The position numbers and the translations under genes were made by a program. The notes below the pieces were generated by a model, which was given only the letters and a program-made list of their open reading frames with translations, ran no database searches and had not been told where the DNA came from. Below, piece after piece: positions 2,061 through 29,797 of a DNA stretch of 34,846 nt; positions within the stretch are counted from its first letter, which is position 1, and each line of letters opens with the position of its first letter. The stretch lies in the NCBI GenBank assembly GCA_014360805.1, contig JACIWU010000029.1:1-34846 (forward strand), written 5' to 3'. Source of the DNA: Chloroflexota bacterium (GTDB lineage Bacteria; Chloroflexota; Anaerolineae; DTLA01).

Positions 2061-2089
2061 ATCTCAAGCCGAAGAAGAGAGGTTCTGCC

Positions 2090-2578
2090 ATGAGTGAAGC
2101 CATCGCTGAAGAAGTGATCCATCGGGGAATCCGCGAAGGCTGGAGCCGCGATCGGATTCTGGATGAGGTCGTTGGGACGCTCCACAGCGCAAACCCGAAA
2201 TACCATTGGGTTGGCGTGTACCTGCTGGTCGGAGACGTACTGGTACTCGGCCCGTATCGCGGGAAGCCGACGATTCATACGCGCATCCCCATCGGCGAGG
2301 GCATCTGCGGGCTGGCTGCGCGCACCCGGGAGACGGTGAATGTGCCCGATGTACGACAAGATCCGCGCTACATCGCGTGCAGCCTGGAGACCCGCTCGGA
2401 GATTGTCGTGCCGATTCTGGATGGGGACTGCGTGTACGGCGAGATTGACATAGACAGCGACGACGAGGCGGCTTTTGACGAGGCCGACCGCGAGAGCCTG
2501 GAACGGGTGGCGCGCCTCCTGGTGCCCGTGCTGGCGAAGCCCGGATGCGGCAAGGAGGGCGCCGATGCGAATCTATGA
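2090..2578 (+). CDS. GAF-domain protein, free methionine-(R)-sulfoxide reductase-like
   Basis: A single GAF domain fills the 162-residue protein. The two cysteines that fRMsr enzymes use are present: C73 in G-I-C-G and C97 in Y-I-A-C-S, exactly 24 residues apart as in the E. coli enzyme (Cys94 and Cys118, the latter catalytic). The segment after C97 (S-E-I-V-V-P-I) and the D-I-D-S-D strand also match. The third fRMsr cysteine, ten residues before C73, is His63 here. By family the enzyme reduces free methionine-R-sulfoxide with thioredoxin. The start is set at 2090 because the earlier ATG overlaps the promoter and because GAAGAGAGG precedes this ATG. The gene overlaps the next one by 14 bp. 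A plain ligand-binding GAF protein is the alternative. Confidence 0.75.
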   Translation: MSEAIAEEVIHRGIREGWSRDRILDEVVGTLHSANPKYHWVGVYLLVGDVLVLGPYRGKPTIHTRIPIGEGICGLAARTRETVNVPDVRQDPRYIACSLETRSEIVVPILDGDCVYGEIDIDSDDEAAFDEADRESLERVARLLVPVLAKPGCGKEGADANL

Positions 2579-3194
2579 CGTGTCCGTGCCCATCCATCCG
2601 GGGATGGTGGTATGGCCTGGGGACGCGAAGGTGGTGTTGGAGCGGGTGCGCAGCCAAGAGGAGGGAAGCCGCGCCACGGTGTCCAATATCCACATGGGCC
2701 TGCACACGGGGACGCATGTTGACGCGCCGTGCCATTTCATCCCGGGTGGGCGCGGCGTGGAGTCGCTGGCGCTGGACGCTCTGGTGGGGCCGGCGTGGGT
2801 GGCGGAACTTGATGCGGCGGGACCGATTGACGCGGGCGACTTGGCGCGCGCCGGTGTGCCCGCGGGTGCCCAGCGCCTTCTGCTGAAGACGCCGAACTCG
2901 GCGCTGTGGGCGCGGCCCGACTTCTCGCAGGATTTCGCCCACCTGACGCCGGATGCCGCCCGCTGGGTGGTGGAGCGGGGACTGCGCCTGGTGGGCGTGG
3001 ACTATCTGTCCGTGGAGGCGTTCGGGGGCGACGGCTCCACGCATACGATTCTGCTGTCGGCGGGGGTCGTGATCCTGGAGGGGCTGGATCTCTCGGCAGT
3101 GAAAGGCGGCTGGTACACGTTGTACTGCCTGCCGCTCAAAGTCCTTGGGGGCGACGGCGCGCCCGCACGTGCTGTGCTTGTTACGGACGATTGA
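2565..3194 (+). CDS. Cyclase/kynurenine formamidase-family metal hydrolase
   Basis: The 209-residue protein carries the full family motif H-x-G-T-H-x-D-x-P-x-H as H47, G49-T50-H51, D53, P55 and H57, which binds metal and is catalytic in KynB-type arylformamidases. The start of the chain (I-Y-D-V-S-V-P-I, then P-G-M-V-V-W-P-G-D) is also typical. The family hydrolyses N-formylkynurenine, isatin and other small amides or cyclic compounds; with no kynurenine-pathway neighbour the substrate cannot be named. The ATG at 2565 was chosen because AAGGAGGG precedes it and residues upstream of it do not match the family. It overlaps the fRMsr-like gene, so the two are probably translationally coupled. 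Confidence 0.85.
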
Positions 3195-3219
3195 CGATGT
3201 CCAATTGGAGGTGTTCACA

Positions 3220-4012: not shown

Positions 4013-5758
4013 CTACGGCAGCGCCCGCGCCTCCAGGTTGTCCCAAACGGCGTCGCCATTTCGGATGTATGCGCCGAACTTGCCGGTGGCGTACCTGGTG
4101 TCCTCCGCCGAGACGCGCTTCACGCCGTCCAGGTAGACATCCATTTTGGAGCCGTCGGCGACGACCTTGATGTGGTACGGACGGCCGTACTCCACGGTCA
4201 TAGGGTAGTAGTTCAGATAGGCGCCGGACTGATTCACGCAGAGTCTCAGCGCATTGGCGCTGGCGTCCAGCACGGCGCAGTAGTTTGATGTGCCATCCGC
4301 CGAAGCGCGGAAAATGAGGCCCGCCGCGTTGCCGCTCAGCAGAATCACCGTGCCTTCATAGACGCTGTTGTCGCCGGTTTCGCTCCTCACATTGTAGCCA
4401 ACCGTCGTGTGGGCCGCCTGCATGTACTCCCCGGGGTTGGACCACGCGCCGCCGTTGGGAGTCCAGCCAGCCAGGTCGCCATCGTTGAAGTCGTCCGAGA
4501 AGATGACGCGGGGCGTAGCAGTCCGCGTCGGCGTGCGAGTGGGCGTGCGGGTTGCAGTGCGCGTCGGCGTGTAGGTGGGGCCGGGGGCCACGCGCTGCTT
4601 CATGATGATGGGTAGGAAGGCGCGCCTCGGAGCCTGCCTCGTCGGCGTGCGGGTAGCGGTGCGCGTCGGCGTGCGGGTGGGGGTGCGGGTAGCGGTGCGC
4701 GTAGCGGTGCGCGTGGGCGTGCGGGTTGGGGTACGCGTTGCGGTGAACGTGGGCGTGGGGGTGCGCGTACTGGTGGGCGCCAGAGTCGGGAAGCTCGCCA
4801 CCTGCACGCGCAGCCGCGCCGGCAAGTTGCTGGTGGCTCCCCCCTTGCCCACGACGCGCACGCGCCACTCGCCCGTGCTGTCGGCAAACACGTAGCAGTG
4901 CTCATCGAACGTGCCGCTGAGATTGTTGCACAACTGCCGGGATGGGCTGCTGTACAAGTTCATGTCGAAGTCTTCTGGAAGGTTGTACAGGTCGGCGGTG
5001 ATCACCTGCCCCTGCACCACCGGGAATCTGAACCAGTCCTCGTCTCCAAGCGGGCAGATGCGCACGTCGTAGGTGGCGCCTGACACGAGGGGGTAGGCAT
5101 TGTAGTAGTCGTTGTAAGGCTCGTAGGGATCTTCGGCGCAACAGAAGGTGAGAGACAGGGTGTCTACGTAGAATTCTGTCCGTCCGCTCTCGTCATTCCG
5201 TGCGTCCACGATCACCTGCCAGGTCTCGTCAGGCGGGAGTCCTCCCGCGGGAAAGTATTGAAAAGTTAGGGGTATCCAGTAAACAGTCCAAGGGATATAA
5301 CTGTCGTTCCATACCCAGAATTCCCGAGAAAACCCGCTGTTGCTTTTGACGGTTATTGTCAGCGAGTCGTAGTGGCCAGGATCCTCGTCGCTCCAGACCG
5401 CAACCACGGCATGGAACCTGACGCCCACGGCTGCGAAGGGAACGTACACGTACTGAGACAACATGTCGCGCGGGTGTATTTCGTCCCGGTAGGGGTCGTA
5501 GCCCAGACAAGCGCTGTAGGTACCTGTGTGTATAGGCCAATCTTCGATGCGCGGCTGGCCGGACACGATCCAGCCCGCAAAGTTGCCCGTCTCGAAGCCG
5601 CCGTTGAGCAGCAGGTTCTCGCAGGGTTGCGCTGCGGCTGAGCAACTGTCCGAGGCTGCGACGGGCGGTCCTGCGGATTCCGGCGATGCCGACGCGGGCG
5701 GGATGGCAAACAGCCCGATGAGGAGTAAGACGATCAGCAAACCTCGTACGTGTTTCAC
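4013..5758 (-). CDS. Secreted multidomain protein: sugar-binding-like, PPC and LamG-like domains with TPT linkers
   Basis: The 581-residue chain starts with a signal peptide (K-H-V-R then a Leu-rich core, ending near A-S-A-S). Next is a beta-sandwich of carbohydrate-binding style beginning L-L-N-G-G-F-E-T-G-N-F (about residues 48-190). A PPC domain follows (about 195-320; D-E-D-W-F-R-F marks it), then a long Thr-Pro/Thr-Arg linker interrupted at about 376-388 by R-R-A-F-L-P-I-I-M-K. A second linker leads to a LamG/DUF1080-like domain (about 415-581; D-D-F-N-D-G-D-L-A-G-W). No catalytic motif was seen, so it is probably an adhesin or glycan-binding surface protein. The start is GTG with a good GGGGAGGT just upstream. 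The F-L-P-I-I motif usually sits at the C-terminus of such proteins; here it is internal. Confidence 0.8.
   Translation of the reverse strand: MKHVRGLLIVLLLIGLFAIPPASASPESAGPPVAASDSCSAAAQPCENLLLNGGFETGNFAGWIVSGQPRIEDWPIHTGTYSACLGYDPYRDEIHPRDMLSQYVYVPFAAVGVRFHAVVAVWSDEDPGHYDSLTITVKSNSGFSREFWVWNDSYIPWTVYWIPLTFQYFPAGGLPPDETWQVIVDARNDESGRTEFYVDTLSLTFCCAEDPYEPYNDYYNAYPLVSGATYDVRICPLGDEDWFRFPVVQGQVITADLYNLPEDFDMNLYSSPSRQLCNNLSGTFDEHCYVFADSTGEWRVRVVGKGGATSNLPARLRVQVASFPTLAPTSTRTPTPTFTATRTPTRTPTRTATRTATRTPTRTPTRTATRTPTRQAPRRAFLPIIMKQRVAPGPTYTPTRTATRTPTRTPTRTATPRVIFSDDFNDGDLAGWTPNGGAWSNPGEYMQAAHTTVGYNVRSETGDNSVYEGTVILLSGNAAGLIFRASADGTSNYCAVLDASANALRLCVNQSGAYLNYYPMTVEYGRPYHIKVVADGSKMDVYLDGVKRVSAEDTRYATGKFGAYIRNGDAVWDNLEARALP
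4513..4578. repeat. TPT-linker coding repeat, block 1
   Basis: Short degenerate tandem repeats of about 6 and 18 bp encode Thr-Pro-Thr-Arg units in the second linker of the secreted protein. The block lies between the internal F-L-P-I-I motif and the LamG-like domain. Confidence 0.8.
4641..4785. repeat. TPT-linker coding repeat, block 2
   Basis: The longer of the two tandem blocks in this gene (about 145 bp of G/C/T-rich hexamer units) encodes the linker between the PPC domain and the F-L-P-I-I motif. Such tracts can change length by slippage, so linker length may vary between strains. Confidence 0.8.
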
Positions 5759-16674: not shown

Positions 16675-19449
16675 ATGCCGACCGTGAATCTGCGAGTCAA
16701 TGGCGACTGGCATGTGCTGGAGGTGGGCGACAAGGAGTCGCTGCTGGACGTGCTCCGCGAGCGCCTGCATTTGACCGGCACGAAGAATGGGTGCGGCGAA
16801 GGCCACTGCGGGGCCTGTACGGTGATCGTGGACGGCAAGGCGCGGCGAGCCTGCATCACGCGCGCCGCGCGGCTGGACGGGAGCACCGTGTGGACGGTTG
16901 AGGCGCTCGCGCAAGAGGGACACCTGCATCCGGTTCAGCAGGCGTTCGTGGCGACGGGCGCCATTCAGTGCGGGTTCTGCACGCCCGGGATGATCATGGC
17001 TGTTAAGGCTTTGTTGGATGAGAACCCCCGCCCGACGCGCGCAGAGATCAAGGAGGTCCTGAAGGGGAACCTGTGTCGCTGCACGGGATACGTGAAAATC
17101 ATTGAGGCCGTGGAACTGGCGGCGGATCTGCTGGCAGGGCGCGCTGCTGTGGAGTCGGTCAGCGGCGCGGGCGTGGGCAAATCGGTGGCGCGGCCCGACG
17201 CCGTGGCGAAGGCCACCGGCACGGCGCAATACGCCGCCGACCTGTTCTTTGACGGGATGCTGTACGGGGCAGTCCTGCGGAGCGAATACCCTCATGCGCG
17301 CATTCTCGGCATTGACGTGAGCCAGGCGCGCACTCTGCCGGGCGTCCATGCGGTGTTGACGGCGGCCGACGTTCCCGGGCGCAAGACGCACGGCCTTGTG
17401 GTGGACGATTGGCCGGTGTTCGCCTGGGACAAGGTGCGCTACGTGGGCGATGCGATTGCCGCTGTGGCCGCCGAGACGCCCGAGATTGCCCGAGCGGCGC
17501 TGGAGCGGATCCGCGTTGACTACGAGCCGCTGCCTGTCGTTACCGATCCGGTGGCCGCCCTGGAGGAAGGCGCGCCGCGCGTGCACGAGAAGGGCAATTT
17601 GGTCTCGGAGGCGAAGGTGCTGCGGGGAGACGCGGAAGAGGCCTTCCGTAACGCCGCCGTGGTGGTGGAGCAGGTGTATGAGACACCGTTCAATGAGCAC
17701 GCTTTTCTGGAGCCAGAGACCTCGGTGGCAGTTCTGCAGGAGGATGGCGGGATCACCGTGTACGTAGGCTCACAGATTCCGTTCTCGGATCGGGCGCAGG
17801 TGGCCGCGTCGCTGGCGCTTCCGCAGGAGAAGGTTCGCATCGTCCAGACGGCGGTCGGCGGGGCGTTTGGCGGCAAGGAGGACATCAGCACGCAGATTCA
17901 CGCCGCGTTGCTGGCCCAGGCAACCGGGCGGCCGGTCAAGTTGACCCTGTCGCGGCGCGAATCCATTCGGGTACATCCGAAGCGCCACGCGACGCGCATC
18001 TGGATGAAGACGGCTGCGGCGGCGGATGGTCGGCTGCTGGCGATGAAGGCGCGCATCTGGGGCGACACGGGGGCCTATGCGTCCTTGGGCCCGCACGTCA
18101 TAAAGCGGGCCGCTACCCATGCGTCTGGCCCCTACGAAATCCCCAATGTGGACATCATCTCCTACACCGTGTACACGAACAACCCACCCGCGGGCGCGTT
18201 CCGAGGGTTCGGCGCGACACAGGCCCATTTCGCCGCAGAGTGCCAGATGGATACTCTGGCAGAACGACTTGGGATTTCGCCGCTGGAACTGCGCAGGCGG
18301 AACGCGCTTCACGTGGGCGCGACAACGGCTGCCGGCCAGGTTCTGCGCGACAGCGTTGGCCTGCCCGATACGATAGAGCGCGCGGTGGCCGCCATTCCCG
18401 AAGCGCGCGTCCTGGGCGATTCGCGGCGGACGTGGCAGCGAGGCGGCCAGCATGGGCGCAAGGTGCGCGGTTGGGGCATGGCGTGCGCCTTCAAGAACGT
18501 TGGGTTGGGCGGCGGCGTGGCGGATTCAGCCGGGGCCGAGGTGGAGTTGTGCGAAGACGGCGCTTTGGAGGTGCGCATCGGCGCGGCGGAAGTGGGCCAG
18601 GGGCTGGTGAGCGTGGCCAGCCAAATCGTGGGCGAGGTCATGGGAGTGAAGCCCGAGGATATCCGGTTGGTCGTTGGTGATACGGCTTTGACGCCGGACG
18701 GAGGGGCCACGACTGCTTCGCGACAGACGTTCATCACTGGCAATGCCGTGCGGCTTGCGGCTCTGGACTTGAAAGCGCTCCTTGCGCAAACGGCAGCCGA
18801 GATGCTGGACTCGTCGCCAGATGCGGTGGAGTTCGTGGATGGCCAGGTCGTGAGCGGCGGGGTTCGCGTGAGCCTGCGTGCCCTTGCGGAAGCGGCGCGC
18901 AAGGAAGGCCGCCGCCCTGTGGTGCGCCGCGTCTATACGCCGCCACGCACTGTGCCCTTGGGGCAGGAAGGCGATGTGCATTTCGCCTACGGGTATGCGA
19001 CGCAGGTGGCCGAGGTGGAGGTGGATTTGGACACGGGGGATGTCCGCGTGCTTCGCGTGGCCGCGGCTCATGATGTGGGCAAGGCCATCAACCCCAAGGC
19101 GGTGCGGGGGCAAATAGAGGGCGGCGTGGTGATGGGCATTGGCCTGGCGCTGAAAGAGGAATTGGTCCTCAACGAGGGCAGGATTGTGTCGGACACGCTG
19201 GCGAAATACAAGATTCCCACGGTTGACGATGTGCCCGAGATCATCCCGATTCTGGTGGAGGCGCCTGCGACAGAAGGCCCGTTCGGTGCCAAAGGCGTGG
19301 GCGAGATTCCTTCCATCGCCACCGTGCCGGCCATTGCGAATGCCATCTACGATGCGACCGGCGTGCGACTCACCCGCGTCCCGATTCGCAAGGAGCACCT
19401 GCGCGAGGCGATTCGTGCGAAGTTGGGTGGCGAGTCTCGGATAATATAA
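16675..19449 (+). CDS. One-chain molybdenum hydroxylase (xanthine dehydrogenase/aldehyde oxidoreductase family)
   Basis: The 924-residue protein fuses a two-cluster 2Fe-2S domain (about 1-155) to the molybdopterin large subunit. Cluster cysteines are C40, C45, C48 and C60, then C99, C102, C134 and C136; the first four match the numbering of Desulfovibrio gigas aldehyde oxidoreductase. The large part shows G-G-A-F-G-G-K-E, P-A-G-A-F-R-G-F-G-A and the active-site Glu877 in G-V-G-E. There is no FAD domain and no separate FAD subunit gene beside it, so it resembles the one-chain Mop-type aldehyde oxidoreductases and would pass electrons to a ferredoxin or flavodoxin. Purine substrates are possible given the deaminase downstream, but the sequence alone does not decide between aldehyde and purine. 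Confidence 0.85.
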   Translation: MPTVNLRVNGDWHVLEVGDKESLLDVLRERLHLTGTKNGCGEGHCGACTVIVDGKARRACITRAARLDGSTVWTVEALAQEGHLHPVQQAFVATGAIQCGFCTPGMIMAVKALLDENPRPTRAEIKEVLKGNLCRCTGYVKIIEAVELAADLLAGRAAVESVSGAGVGKSVARPDAVAKATGTAQYAADLFFDGMLYGAVLRSEYPHARILGIDVSQARTLPGVHAVLTAADVPGRKTHGLVVDDWPVFAWDKVRYVGDAIAAVAAETPEIARAALERIRVDYEPLPVVTDPVAALEEGAPRVHEKGNLVSEAKVLRGDAEEAFRNAAVVVEQVYETPFNEHAFLEPETSVAVLQEDGGITVYVGSQIPFSDRAQVAASLALPQEKVRIVQTAVGGAFGGKEDISTQIHAALLAQATGRPVKLTLSRRESIRVHPKRHATRIWMKTAAAADGRLLAMKARIWGDTGAYASLGPHVIKRAATHASGPYEIPNVDIISYTVYTNNPPAGAFRGFGATQAHFAAECQMDTLAERLGISPLELRRRNALHVGATTAAGQVLRDSVGLPDTIERAVAAIPEARVLGDSRRTWQRGGQHGRKVRGWGMACAFKNVGLGGGVADSAGAEVELCEDGALEVRIGAAEVGQGLVSVASQIVGEVMGVKPEDIRLVVGDTALTPDGGATTASRQTFITGNAVRLAALDLKALLAQTAAEMLDSSPDAVEFVDGQVVSGGVRVSLRALAEAARKEGRRPVVRRVYTPPRTVPLGQEGDVHFAYGYATQVAEVEVDLDTGDVRVLRVAAAHDVGKAINPKAVRGQIEGGVVMGIGLALKEELVLNEGRIVSDTLAKYKIPTVDDVPEIIPILVEAPATEGPFGAKGVGEIPSIATVPAIANAIYDATGVRLTRVPIRKEHLREAIRAKLGGESRII

Positions 19450-21468: not shown

Positions 21469-21518
21469 CATGCCGCCCTGGTTTTGACGGCGTGCATTCT
21501 GCCGAAGGAGACGACCTA

Positions 21519-23480
21519 ATGGATGCGGATATCCTGTTTGCCGGCGGCGTTGTCGTTACAATGGACGCCGGGCGCCGAGTCATACGGGATGGGGCTGTGG
21601 CGGTGCGCGATGGTCGGATTGTCGCCGTGGGGAAGTTGGAGGATGTCCGCACCCACTGGGCTGCAAGGGAGACCCGAGACTGCGGCGGTTGCGTCGTCAT
21701 GCCTGGGCTGGTGAATACCCATACGCACCTGCCCATGAGCCTGTTGCGCGGCCTAGTGGATGACCTGCGCCTGGACGTGTGGCTCTACGGCTACATGCTG
21801 CCCGTGGAGCGCGAGTTCACGGACGAGCGTTTCTGCCGCGTGGGCACGTTGCTGTCGTGCGCGGAACTGATCCGTTCGGGCGTTACGTGCCTGGCCGACA
21901 TGTACTACTACGAGGACACCGTCGCGGAGACGGTGGCCGAGGCGGGGTTGCGGGGAGTCTGCGCTGAGACCATCATGAAGATTCCCACGCCGGATGCCGA
22001 GAGTTACGACGAAAGCCTGGACTATGCTCGGCGCTTTGTGGAAAAGTGGCATGGCCACCCGCTTATCACTCCCGCGTTTGGGCCTCATTCCATCTATCTG
22101 TGCACGCCAGAGATTCTGCATGCTACGTCCATGCTGGGCTTGAAGTACGATGTCCCGCAGTTGATTCACATCGCGGAGACTGACCTGGAGGTGCGCGAAC
22201 TCGTTGAGAAATTGGGCGAGTCGCCGGTCATCTGGATGCAGAAGCAGGGACTGCTCGTCGGCAAGATGTTGGTGGCGCATGGCGTCCATCTAACCGACGG
22301 CGAGATGCGGCTTCTGGCCGAGCGGCGTATCGGCGTGGCACACAATCCGACGAGCAATCTGAAGTTGGCCAGCGGCATCGCCCGCGTGATGGCCATGCGT
22401 CAGAGCGGGGTCAGCGTGGGGCTTGGCACCGACGGGTGCGCTAGCAACAACGACCTGGACATGTTTGAGGAGATGCGGCTTGCGGCGCTGCTGCCCAAGG
22501 GCGTGTCGGGCGACCCTACGGCGTTGCCCGCGCGGGTTGCCGTGGAGATGGCGACGCTGGAGGGCGCACGCACTCTCTATCTGGATGCGGAAATCGGCTC
22601 GCTGGAGCCAGGCAAGTGGGCCGACATCGTCGTGGTGAACCTGGACACGGTGCATGAAACCCCGAAGTTCGCAATTTCGGACAACAACGTGTACTCGCAG
22701 TTGGTGTACGCGGCGAAGAGCGCGGACGTGCGCGATGTGGCTGTCGCTGGGCGCTTCCTGATGCGAGACCGAGAACTGCTCACGATAGACGTGGCCGCTG
22801 TCCGCTCGGACGCCGAGGCCATGGCGGCCCGAATTGACCGTTTTCTGGCAGCCCGCGAGGAGGATTTGGTGGACAAGATCGTGGGCATCGGTGGCGTGGA
22901 GCAGCAGGAGACTTTTGAGGTGCAGGTGAAGGTGCGGCTGCCCGATGAGAGCGCCCTGCGGCACTTGCTAGGGCACAGGGATGTCAGCGTGATTCGCGAA
23001 AGCGTGCGCCGCCAGTACGATACCTACTTCCTGTTTGAAGATGCGGACAAGGGCCACGTTCGGTATCGCGAGGACAACGTCATCCAGCCCGATGGTTCGC
23101 TGGCGCCCCGCTACGGCCTGACGCTGCGGGGGCCAACTCTGGAGCGGGTGTATGAGAATTCCGTCATTCTGTCGCGCTCGCGATTCAGCGCCGTTGCCGA
23201 CCGCTCGCTACGTTTCTACAGGGAGTACTTCCAGCCTGACCGCATTAAGGAGGTGAACAAGGAGCGGCGCCGCTGGCGTATTCAGTACAAGGGCGTGGAT
23301 TTTGAAGTCAACGCCGACCGGCTCTTCAAGCCCGCGTATGAAGACCTGTTTCTTGAGGTGAAGAGCCGCACCTGGTCGGCGAAGGACGCTCTGGCAAAGG
23401 CACAACTCATCGGCGAGATGTTGGAGATCATGAGCGTTTCGCCGGAGCAGATTGTGCGAAAGGAATATGTGGACTTCTAG
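21519..23480 (+). CDS. MTA/SAH-deaminase-type amidohydrolase fused to a CYTH domain
   Basis: The 653-residue chain has two parts. Residues 1-450 are an amidohydrolase of the MTA/SAH deaminase class: N-T-H68-T-H70-L-P-M-S-L-L-R-G, then L-I-H-I-A-E, V-A-H-G-V-H and L-G-T-D-G-C-A-S-N-N. Such enzymes deaminate methylthioadenosine, S-adenosylhomocysteine or related nucleosides. Residues about 463-650 look like a CYTH (triphosphate tunnel) domain: E467-V-Q-V-K471 replaces E-x-E-x-K, then Y-D-T-Y-F and D-L-F-L-E-V-K-S-R-T. Standard deaminases end near 430-450 aa. No stop or frameshift separates the parts. The ATG at 21519 follows AAGGAG. MtnP lies convergent downstream. The role of the fused domain is unknown. 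Confidence 0.85.
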   Translation: MDADILFAGGVVVTMDAGRRVIRDGAVAVRDGRIVAVGKLEDVRTHWAARETRDCGGCVVMPGLVNTHTHLPMSLLRGLVDDLRLDVWLYGYMLPVEREFTDERFCRVGTLLSCAELIRSGVTCLADMYYYEDTVAETVAEAGLRGVCAETIMKIPTPDAESYDESLDYARRFVEKWHGHPLITPAFGPHSIYLCTPEILHATSMLGLKYDVPQLIHIAETDLEVRELVEKLGESPVIWMQKQGLLVGKMLVAHGVHLTDGEMRLLAERRIGVAHNPTSNLKLASGIARVMAMRQSGVSVGLGTDGCASNNDLDMFEEMRLAALLPKGVSGDPTALPARVAVEMATLEGARTLYLDAEIGSLEPGKWADIVVVNLDTVHETPKFAISDNNVYSQLVYAAKSADVRDVAVAGRFLMRDRELLTIDVAAVRSDAEAMAARIDRFLAAREEDLVDKIVGIGGVEQQETFEVQVKVRLPDESALRHLLGHRDVSVIRESVRRQYDTYFLFEDADKGHVRYREDNVIQPDGSLAPRYGLTLRGPTLERVYENSVILSRSRFSAVADRSLRFYREYFQPDRIKEVNKERRRWRIQYKGVDFEVNADRLFKPAYEDLFLEVKSRTWSAKDALAKAQLIGEMLEIMSVSPEQIVRKEYVDF

Positions 23481-23504: not shown

Positions 23505-23534
23505 AAAGGCCCTTCCCAGTCGGAAGGGCCTTTT
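23505..23534. terminator. Bidirectional terminator between the deaminase-CYTH gene and mtnP
   Basis: A perfect 12-bp stem (23505-23516 with 23522-23533) with a 5-nt loop is flanked by A and T runs in both directions. It serves the two convergent genes that meet here. Confidence 0.85.
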
Positions 23535-23554: not shown

Positions 23555-24418
23555 CTACTTCAGGTACTTGTCCAGCAGAAGGCTGAGTTTCTGGCGGGTG
23601 GCCGGCGGGATTTTGGCCGGGTTGGTGATGATGGCATTCTCCAGGGCGTGGGGACACGGGCAGGTGGTCGGGCTGCCCAACGTAGGGACGGCCAAGCGGA
23701 TGATTCTCTTGGCCATTTCCACGTTCTTCTGGAGGTTCTGCACGATCATCTCTACGGTAACGGCCTCTTCGGATTCGTGCCAGACGTCGTAGTCGGTAAC
23801 GAGGGCCAGGGTGGCGTAGCAGATTTCCGCCTCGCGCGCGAGTTTGGCTTCGGGAAGCGCCGTCATGCCGATGACATCCACGCCCCACGACCGGTAGATG
23901 CGCGATTCTGCCTTCGTGGAGAATTGCGGCCCCTCCATGACGACCATCGTCCCGTCCTTGTGGACGGTGGCCCCTGCTTTCTGCGCGGCGACGTAGAGTT
24001 TCTCGCGCATGTCGGGGCAGAACGGCTCGGCGAAACTGATGTGGACCACGACCCCGTCGCCGAAGAACGTGCTCGGGCGTGCCTTGGTGCGGTCAAAGAT
24101 CTGGTCGGGGATGACGATGTGAAGCGGGGCGATCTCCTGCTTCATGCTACCGCAGGCGCTGATGGCGATGATGCGCTGCACTCCCAGGCTCTTCAGGGCG
24201 TAGATGTTTGCGCGGGCGGGCAACTCCGATGGGGAGATGTAGTGCCCTCGCCCATGACGGGGCAGGAATGCGACCCTCACGCCCTCCAGGGTGCCGACGA
24301 TGATCGCGTCGCTGGGATCGCCAAAGGGGGTTTTGAGGCGAATCTCCTCAATCTGGGTCAGGTTCTCCATTTCGTAGACACCGCTTCCGCCGATGACGCC
24401 AACGAGTACGGGTTCCAT
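23555..24418 (-). CDS. mtnP: S-methyl-5'-thioadenosine phosphorylase
   Basis: The 287-residue protein has the family signatures G-V-I-G-G-S-G-V-Y, P-R-H-G-R-G-H, A-C-G-S-M, V-V-M-E-G-P-Q-F-S-T-K-A-E-S and T-D-Y-D. The D-Y-D pair contacts the 6-amino group and marks adenosine-type (MTAP) rather than inosine/guanosine-type phosphorylases. It splits methylthioadenosine with phosphate into adenine and methylthioribose-1-phosphate for methionine salvage. The ATG at 24418 has AGGAGG upstream; residues before it do not fit. A consensus promoter with an overlapping inverted repeat sits at 24449-24483. Confidence 0.9.
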   Translation of the reverse strand: MEPVLVGVIGGSGVYEMENLTQIEEIRLKTPFGDPSDAIIVGTLEGVRVAFLPRHGRGHYISPSELPARANIYALKSLGVQRIIAISACGSMKQEIAPLHIVIPDQIFDRTKARPSTFFGDGVVVHISFAEPFCPDMREKLYVAAQKAGATVHKDGTMVVMEGPQFSTKAESRIYRSWGVDVIGMTALPEAKLAREAEICYATLALVTDYDVWHESEEAVTVEMIVQNLQKNVEMAKRIIRLAVPTLGSPTTCPCPHALENAIITNPAKIPPATRQKLSLLLDKYLK

Positions 24419-24448
24419 ACGCTTGCCTCCTGAGGTGATCACGGGAGG

Positions 24449-24477
24449 ATTATACACGCAGTTGGGCGTGTTGCCAA
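24449..24477 (-). promoter_or_regulatory. Promoter of mtnP
   Basis: On the minus strand TTGGCA (24477-24472), a 17-bp spacer and a perfect TATAAT (24454-24449) lie 30 bp before the mtnP start codon. Only one base of twelve differs from consensus. Confidence 0.8.
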
Positions 24478-24483
24478 CTGCGT
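24456..24483. promoter_or_regulatory. Perfect inverted repeat over the mtnP promoter, candidate operator
   Basis: ACGCAGTTGG (24456-24465) and its exact reverse complement (24474-24483) are separated by 8 bp. The repeat spans the spacer and the -35 box of the mtnP promoter and lies upstream of the transcription start, so it is a DNA-level operator rather than an mRNA hairpin. A repressor bound here would block RNA polymerase. The regulator is unknown. Confidence 0.65.
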
Positions 24484-24555
24484 TGAGCCTTTTCAACCCC
24501 TGTCGCTTCCGGTGCCACAGGTGGGGAGTGAGCGGAAGATGCGCGCACGTGCAAT

Positions 24556-28605: not shown

Positions 28606-29186
<581 letters not shown>

Positions 29187-29199
<13 letters not shown>

Positions 29200-29215
29200 G
29201 CCTCCGTGGTATGAT
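29187..29215 (+). promoter_or_regulatory. Promoter of the lipoprotein gene, inside the scpB start region
   Basis: TTGTCA (29187-29192), a 17-bp spacer and an extended -10 TGG-TATGAT (29210-29215) are visible. The promoter overlaps the first codons of the divergent scpB gene, so the two genes may interfere with each other. Confidence 0.6.
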
Positions 29216-29245
29216 GTCAAGCCGGTCCTTGTGGAGCGAGTCGTG

Positions 29246-29797
29246 ATGCGAAAACTCTCACTGCTGGCATTGGCGTTGCTTTGCGTTTCCATCGCTGCCT
29301 GCAAGCCCCGGGCAGAGGCGACTCCCGCGTGCGGCGCGCCGCCCCAGATTGCTTACTCCGAGGAACTGGCGCAGTCGCTGGACGCGCGGCTGCAGCCTTA
29401 CCTTCAGGGTCGGACGGGCGAATTCGCCTTGCAGACGACTTCGCAGGAACTCACGTCCTGGATCACCTACACGGCCGCCATGTGGTCTGGGATACCGGCC
29501 CGAGATGTGGTGGTCTGGTTTTCGCCCGATCACGTACACTTTAGCGGCGTGATCACCCGCGTGCTCGTGTTCTCGTTTCGGGTTCAGGTCCATGCGCACG
29601 TCTCGCTGAGCGGCCAGGCGCTGCAGGTTTCGGTGGAGCAAGCCTGCCTGGCCGGGATTGCATTGCCCGGATGGGCTAGAAACCTGGCGAGTCGCATCAT
29701 CACCGATACCATCGCGGACACGGGGCCCTACGTGCGGTTGGAGTCGCTGGAAGTCGGCGACCATTCCCTCCGGGCAAGCGGCCGGATTGGCTACTAG
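29246..29797 (+). CDS. Secreted lipoprotein of unknown function
   Basis: The 183-residue protein starts with a short charged end and Leu-rich core, ending in the lipobox I-A-A-C19, so it should be lipid-anchored to the membrane. The mature part contains amphipathic strands, for example V-F-S-F-R-V-Q-V-H-A-H-V and L-S-G-Q-A-L-Q-V-S-V, and resembles a small beta-rich LolA/LppX-like fold only in outline. I do not recognise the family. The ATG at 29246 follows GGAG with a normal spacing; GTG at 29243 is an alternative. It has its own promoter, and its stop overlaps the stop of the convergent AmaP-like gene within four bases (CTAG at 29794-29797). Confidence 0.7.
   Translation: MRKLSLLALALLCVSIAACKPRAEATPACGAPPQIAYSEELAQSLDARLQPYLQGRTGEFALQTTSQELTSWITYTAAMWSGIPARDVVVWFSPDHVHFSGVITRVLVFSFRVQVHAHVSLSGQALQVSVEQACLAGIALPGWARNLASRIITDTIADTGPYVRLESLEVGDHSLRASGRIGY

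Follow-up and report, generated by a model that had tools for sequence, protein, structure and literature searches.

The window, a 34,846-nucleotide stretch of a contig from a Chloroflexota bacterium, carries at 21519..23480 (+) a single gene whose 653-residue product joins an amidohydrolase of the nucleoside deaminase type to a CYTH domain. Both halves belong to known families; their combination is not described in the papers searched, and it and the state of the CYTH motifs appear to be new. The deaminase residues are intact, and the tunnel of the CYTH domain has lost the same two ligands of its catalytic metal site throughout the family. We put at about even the chance that the protein is a nucleoside deaminase with a non-hydrolytic, triphosphate-binding CYTH domain that serves in regulation or tethering.

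The frame is open from the ATG at 21519 to the stop codon at 23478-23480 without a break. A Shine-Dalgarno-like GAAGGAG, read directly from the sequence, lies 8 nt 5' of the start codon (21504..21510, +), and a putative terminator-like hairpin, AAAGGCCCTTCC-CAGTC-GGAAGGGCCTTTT (23505..23534, no strand assigned; read directly, no scan score), lies between the gene and its convergent neighbour. The initial annotation had described one unbroken chain and had named a frameshift between two genes as what would undo it. With a metagenome contig it is reasonable to suspect that a sequencing or assembly error joined two genes, but we found no evidence in support of this, and the comparative data already refute it: the same fused frame recurs in hundreds of independent genomes, complete ones such as that of Herpetosiphon aurantiacus DSM 785 included, and dN/dS through the junction is about 0.05. 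The probability of an artefact is negligible. Compared with its congeners, the window gene has dN/dS values of 0.041-0.044 in the deaminase and 0.049-0.060 in the CYTH part, and the two halves are thus under similarly strong purifying selection. In the helical linker between them (22791..22892, +; helices 425-448 and 450-458 in the secondary structure of the full-length model), F442, E447 and K453 are invariant (alignment A3).

Deaminase and CYTH domains

Residues 1-440 (21519..22838, +) form a domain of the MTA/SAH/adenosine deaminase type, as judged from profile and PDB sequence matches, the predicted fold and conserved residues. Pfam Amidohydro_1 (PF01979) covers residues 59-412 (E 4e-64) and scores above its curated cut-off. 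The best NCBIfam model is PRK09045 at 452.6 bits, below its cut-off of 540; the models for N-ethylammeline chlorohydrolase, 5'-deoxyadenosine deaminase and MTA/SAH deaminase come next, none of them over its cut-off. The metal ligands H68, H70, H217, H254 and D305 are kept in 78-80 of 81 homologues, with exceptions that are mostly gaps, and W88, E97 and H190, which are expected to touch the nucleoside as in TM0936, are kept in 79. E220 is also intact, and all the deaminase residues checked are present in the window protein and almost invariant in the homologues.

The full-length model (pLDDT 92.1, pTM 0.86) matches 4dzh with Z 57.7 and 1.4 A over 437 residues at 41% identity. Next come 4dyk/4gbd and then 4f0r/4f0s, all deposited as adenosine deaminases or homologues; 4gbd contains methylthio-coformycin and 4f0s inosine, and the molecule name of 4f0r is 5-methylthioadenosine/S-adenosylhomocysteine deaminase. 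Four structures from these three sets match the window deaminase at Z 56.8-57.7 with 38-41% identity over about 435 residues. The likeness to the proteins of P. aeruginosa (4dyk/4gbd), X. campestris (4dzh), C. violaceum (4f0r/4f0s) and T. maritima (TM0936) extends over the whole N-terminal domain with its metal and catalytic residues. Its first description, as a complete amidohydrolase with H68-x-H70 and the other metal motifs intact, was correct. Whereas these proteins end near residue 440, the window protein continues with the linker and the CYTH domain. This first half is predicted to act as a metal-dependent 6-aminopurine nucleoside deaminase.

The CYTH, or triphosphate-tunnel, domain occupies residues 464-653 (22908..23477, +). 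Pfam CYTH (PF01928) matches residues 467-633 with 31.4 bits in the whole protein and 35.5 bits in the domain alone, against a cut-off of 23.2. Comparison of this part with PDB sequences gave nothing significant, only chance matches to MutS and an interferon-inducible GTPase, and the fold therefore had to be shown by prediction. Modelled alone with a 55-homologue alignment (pLDDT 86.9, pTM 0.81), the domain has SaTTM, CyaB-type proteins, AtTTM3 and ThTPase among its top Foldseek matches. CYTH/TTM structures match the predicted model at Z 11-16 over 149-172 residues; VIA-align gives Z 16.3 for 2een (2.4 A over 165 residues) and Z 14.7-15.3 for SaTTM and CyaB. The initial annotation had proposed a C-terminal CYTH-like domain, to be abandoned if the tunnel fold did not match, and both the Pfam score and the predicted fold uphold it.

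Invariant in all 81 homologues are E467, Q469, K471, Q499, D501, Y503, R515, R517, K581, R583, R585, N598, D600, E613 and K615, and the motifs D501-T-Y503-F and E613-V-K615-S-R-T are present as originally described. The first tunnel motif, E467-x-Q469-x-K471 (22917..22931, +), reads ExQxK rather than the canonical ExExK in 81 of 81, a replacement already pointed out in the first inspection. A second one had been missed: in the strand-8 motif, E613-x-K615 (23355..23363, +), the first glutamate of the ExE of catalytic TTM proteins is kept and the second is lysine, again in 81 of 81. Alignment with stand-alone CYTH proteins of the same bacterial class (one multiple alignment and two profile-profile alignments, E 1e-8 and 4e-7) places Q469 at the second glutamate of ExExK and K615 at that of ExE. 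Aligned in these ways, the majority of stand-alone CYTH genes in the class have both glutamates intact; the substitutions are therefore particular to the fusion. The domain is like SaTTM, YgiF, AtTTM3, CyaB and ThTPase in its tunnel fold, the E and K of ExExK, QxDxY, RxR, KxR, the D and the site-1 glutamate; it is unlike CYTH/TTM enzymes in that every member combines ExQxK with ExK and is fused to a deaminase. The canonical T-x-K lysine is not conserved (position 537 is mostly T in the 81 homologues), which cautions against assuming normal affinity, and triphosphate binding could be weaker. The stretches RFYREYF (565-571) and SRTWS (616-620) are strongly conserved and lack an equivalent in the aligned stand-alone CYTH proteins.

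Specific CYTH activities were considered and rejected. Class IV adenylyl cyclases (CyaB) are defined by an HF motif that precedes ExExK and by Ala in place of the second Glu of ExE (PMC8233210); here HF is absent before E467, and position 615 is Lys. For thiamine triphosphatase, R515 and R517 of the W/YxRxR motif are present in the alignment and the W/Y is not conserved: position 513, which precedes R515 by two residues, is H in the window and varies among R, H, Y and others in relatives.

Predicted ligand binding and loss of hydrolysis in the tunnel

In YgiF, Glu160 and the substrate hold the metal of site 1, and Glu4, Glu6 and Glu162 hold the catalytic metal of site 2; replacement of Glu6 or Glu160 by Ala impairs activity, as does mutation at Glu4 in AtTTM3 (PMC4641920). 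In SaTTM the first Glu of the ExE motif serves metal 1 and the second metal 2 (PMC8233210). By alignment, Q469 is equivalent to YgiF Glu6, K615 to Glu162 and E613 to Glu160. The fused family thus keeps its ligand for metal 1 and most basic residues of the tunnel wall, and it has lost two of the three site-2 ligands, one of them to a positive charge, a pattern that suggests a binding domain rather than a hydrolase. A degenerating passenger domain is ruled out by the invariant tunnel residues and the dN/dS of about 0.05, which point to maintained function rather than decay. The earlier suggestion that the domain senses rather than cleaves its ligand gains strength from the second fixed site-2 loss, K615 in 81 of 81; sensing itself we still infer.

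In the reading we favour, the deaminase would remove the 6-amino group from an adenosine-like nucleoside, as its named families suggest. The tunnel keeps most of the basic residues that grip phosphate and the site-1 glutamate, a ligand of the metal bound to the substrate, but it has lost site 2, where water is activated; it should therefore bind a triphosphate-bearing ligand without cutting it. Candidate ligands are ATP or another NTP, tripolyphosphate, or the end of a polyphosphate chain. Such binding without hydrolysis would have a precedent in the trypanosome protein RESC2, which has the TTM fold without metal ligands and binds 5'-triphosphate RNA (PMC10201420). RESC1-RESC2 is, however, an RNA-editing scaffold with a deformed barrel, and its structural likeness to the CYTH domain of the fusion is remote (Z 8.5). 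We hypothesize that ligand binding regulates or positions the deaminase, changing its activity or location. An allosteric control of a new kind, in which a retired tunnel reading ATP, tripolyphosphate or polyphosphate gates a nucleoside-salvage deaminase in two Chloroflexota classes, is a tentative extension that we regard as rather unlikely.

Alternatively, the tunnel may no longer bind a small triphosphate and may serve oligomerisation or the docking of protein or RNA. The TTM-fold subunits Med18/Med20 of Mediator are a precedent for such a scaffold role. Mediator chains are among the structural matches of the model (Z 10-12.6), and the loss of two metal ligands and of the T-x-K lysine across the family would fit, as would the conserved RFYREYF and SRTWS stretches. 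A pure scaffold would not need tunnel residues, though, and K471, R515, R517, K581, R583 and E613 are kept in 81 of 81; we consider this explanation unlikely. The protein could also be a bifunctional enzyme in which the CYTH half still catalyses, for example by one-metal hydrolysis of pyrophosphate or nucleotides, and couples two steps of nucleotide breakdown. The retained site-1 glutamate and basic residues are in keeping with this, and so are plant TTM1 and TTM2, described in a superfamily survey as a nucleoside/nucleotide-type enzyme domain joined to a TTM domain without ExExK and ExE (PMC8233210). These proteins are reported there to act on pyrophosphate, indeed to prefer it, and loss of the hallmark motifs is therefore no proof of lost catalysis; the TTM1 module 7z67 is also among the structural matches of the CYTH model (Z 13.0). 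Their enzyme domain, however, is phosphoribulokinase/uridine-kinase-like and unrelated to the deaminase, and they are confined to plants and Amoebozoa and keep W/YxRxR (PMC8233210). Against continued catalysis, both site-2 changes are fixed in the fusion, and a single equivalent mutation (Glu6 in YgiF, Glu4 in AtTTM3) impairs those enzymes (PMC4641920); the absence of the cyclase HF motif and of a conserved W/YxRxR argues in the same direction. We hold a catalytic CYTH half to be distinctly unlikely.

Distribution, neighbours and candidate substrate

The fusion is old and stable. It is full-length in 38 of 60 genomes, comprising the window's own and its relatives, and cut by a contig end in two more (the contig of G005 ends inside the gene). 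The CYTH subfamily of the fusion occurs in 272 of the 397 genomes of the class, nearly always in single copy within a long fused frame. Of 301 genomes sampled across the phylum, 62 have it, 33 from the window's own class and the others from a few families outside it. Named loci come from Anaerolineae, Ardenticatenia, Herpetosiphon and members of the Roseiflexaceae/Chloroflexales. The frames that carry the matches are about 570-840 residues long. Among the matches listed with frames there is no stand-alone gene of this subfamily, apart from two shorter frames (L041, 209 aa at a contig edge, and G196, 347 aa) that do not establish one. The window's genome, a bin of 3.24 Mb, has no other CYTH domain among those found, and some relatives also carry canonical CYTH genes. 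Its nearest relatives, with a 93-94% identical protein, are MAGs labelled Chloroflexi/Anaerolineae. In a second phylum the fusion was found in 2 of 97 genomes, one labelled Deltaproteobacteria, and this rarity suggests transfer or mislabelled bins. The locus in the Deltaproteobacteria-labelled MAG is L106 (JAOAFA010000099.1, 5663-6295). In a tree of deaminase domains, the 12 unfused relatives that were read correctly group together as one clade, in agreement with the fusion having arisen once; four unfused rows read in the wrong frame are a long-branch artefact, and we draw little from the tree.

The convergent neighbour at 23555..24496 (-) had been named as MtnP, S-methyl-5'-thioadenosine phosphorylase, and its NCBIfam scores agree: TIGR01694 gives 332 bits (cut-off 275), and the methylthioinosine phosphorylase model PRK09136 is also just exceeded (223.8, cut-off 223). 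Comparison of fusion and MTAP coordinates shows this adjacency in 10 of 40 fusion-bearing genomes from seven families, always convergent and within about 2.5 kb (G000, G001, G002, G017, G019, G021, G027, G031, G049 and G054). Because the adjacency recurs, 5'-methylthioadenosine (MTA) is favoured as the most likely substrate. Pseudomonas aeruginosa uses an MTA deaminase followed by a methylthioinosine phosphorylase (PMC6302742), and by analogy a two-step route from MTA through methylthioinosine to hypoxanthine would be the most economical reading here. S-adenosylhomocysteinase is present in 57 of the 60 genomes and an MTAP-family protein in 58 at any score (53 over cut-off), so the sequences also allow adenosine and 5'-deoxyadenosine; the substrate is perhaps one of these or SAH.

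Across 80 loci there is no single conserved operon around the fusion, and no operon partner links it with the metabolism of triphosphates or polyphosphate. In 21 of the 80 the fusion adjoins a gene for a divergent membrane protein that ends in an endonuclease/exonuclease/phosphatase domain (e.g. L101:5538-7658), and in 5 a pyrimidine-nucleoside phosphorylase lies nearby. Transketolase halves occur near it in seven loci (L052, L062, L073, L044, L070, L048 and L033), with the N-half gene downstream on the same strand, at no more than about 500 bp in six of the seven. In the window's genus, xanthine dehydrogenase lies upstream of the fusion; in the window it is a single chain that comprises both the iron-sulphur and the molybdenum subunit (16675-19446, +; TIGR03311 at 900.9 bits against a cut-off of 830), with MobA upstream of it and MoeA and MobB after it. 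MoeA/MobB are found upstream of the fusion in a few other loci as well. Elsewhere in the window, the long ORFs at 2067-3218 (-), 4016-5758 (-) and 28964-29794 (+) have no Pfam match at 1e-5.

Novelty and significance

A full-text search of the open-access literature found no paper with both CYTH and amidohydrolase, which is no proof that the architecture has gone unnoted, and CYTH together with Chloroflexi gave one PIWI paper only. In the literature searched there is no sign that a triphosphate-sensing role of the fusion has been tested. The available portion of the superfamily survey gives CHAD and phosphoribulokinase fusions as the two-domain CYTH architectures and does not name an amidohydrolase (PMC8233210). 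Automatic listing of the architecture in domain databases is likely, which makes the claim of novelty more modest.

Reading the gene as a fusion improves on annotation by one half, as an amidohydrolase or as a CYTH protein. CYTH/TTM proteins have been studied mainly as enzymes, and the fusion would provide a natural triphosphate-binding regulatory domain: a subfamily widely conserved in bacteria whose metal site for hydrolysis is fixed as non-functional and which, among the matches listed with frames, is attached to a deaminase only. Its presence in cultured bacteria (Herpetosiphon) makes expression and assay possible at once. The gene would offer a first handle on the disposal of MTA or 5'-deoxyadenosine in Chloroflexota and, if the tunnel does gate the deaminase, the disposal of SAM by-products would be tied to the energy or phosphate state of the cell.
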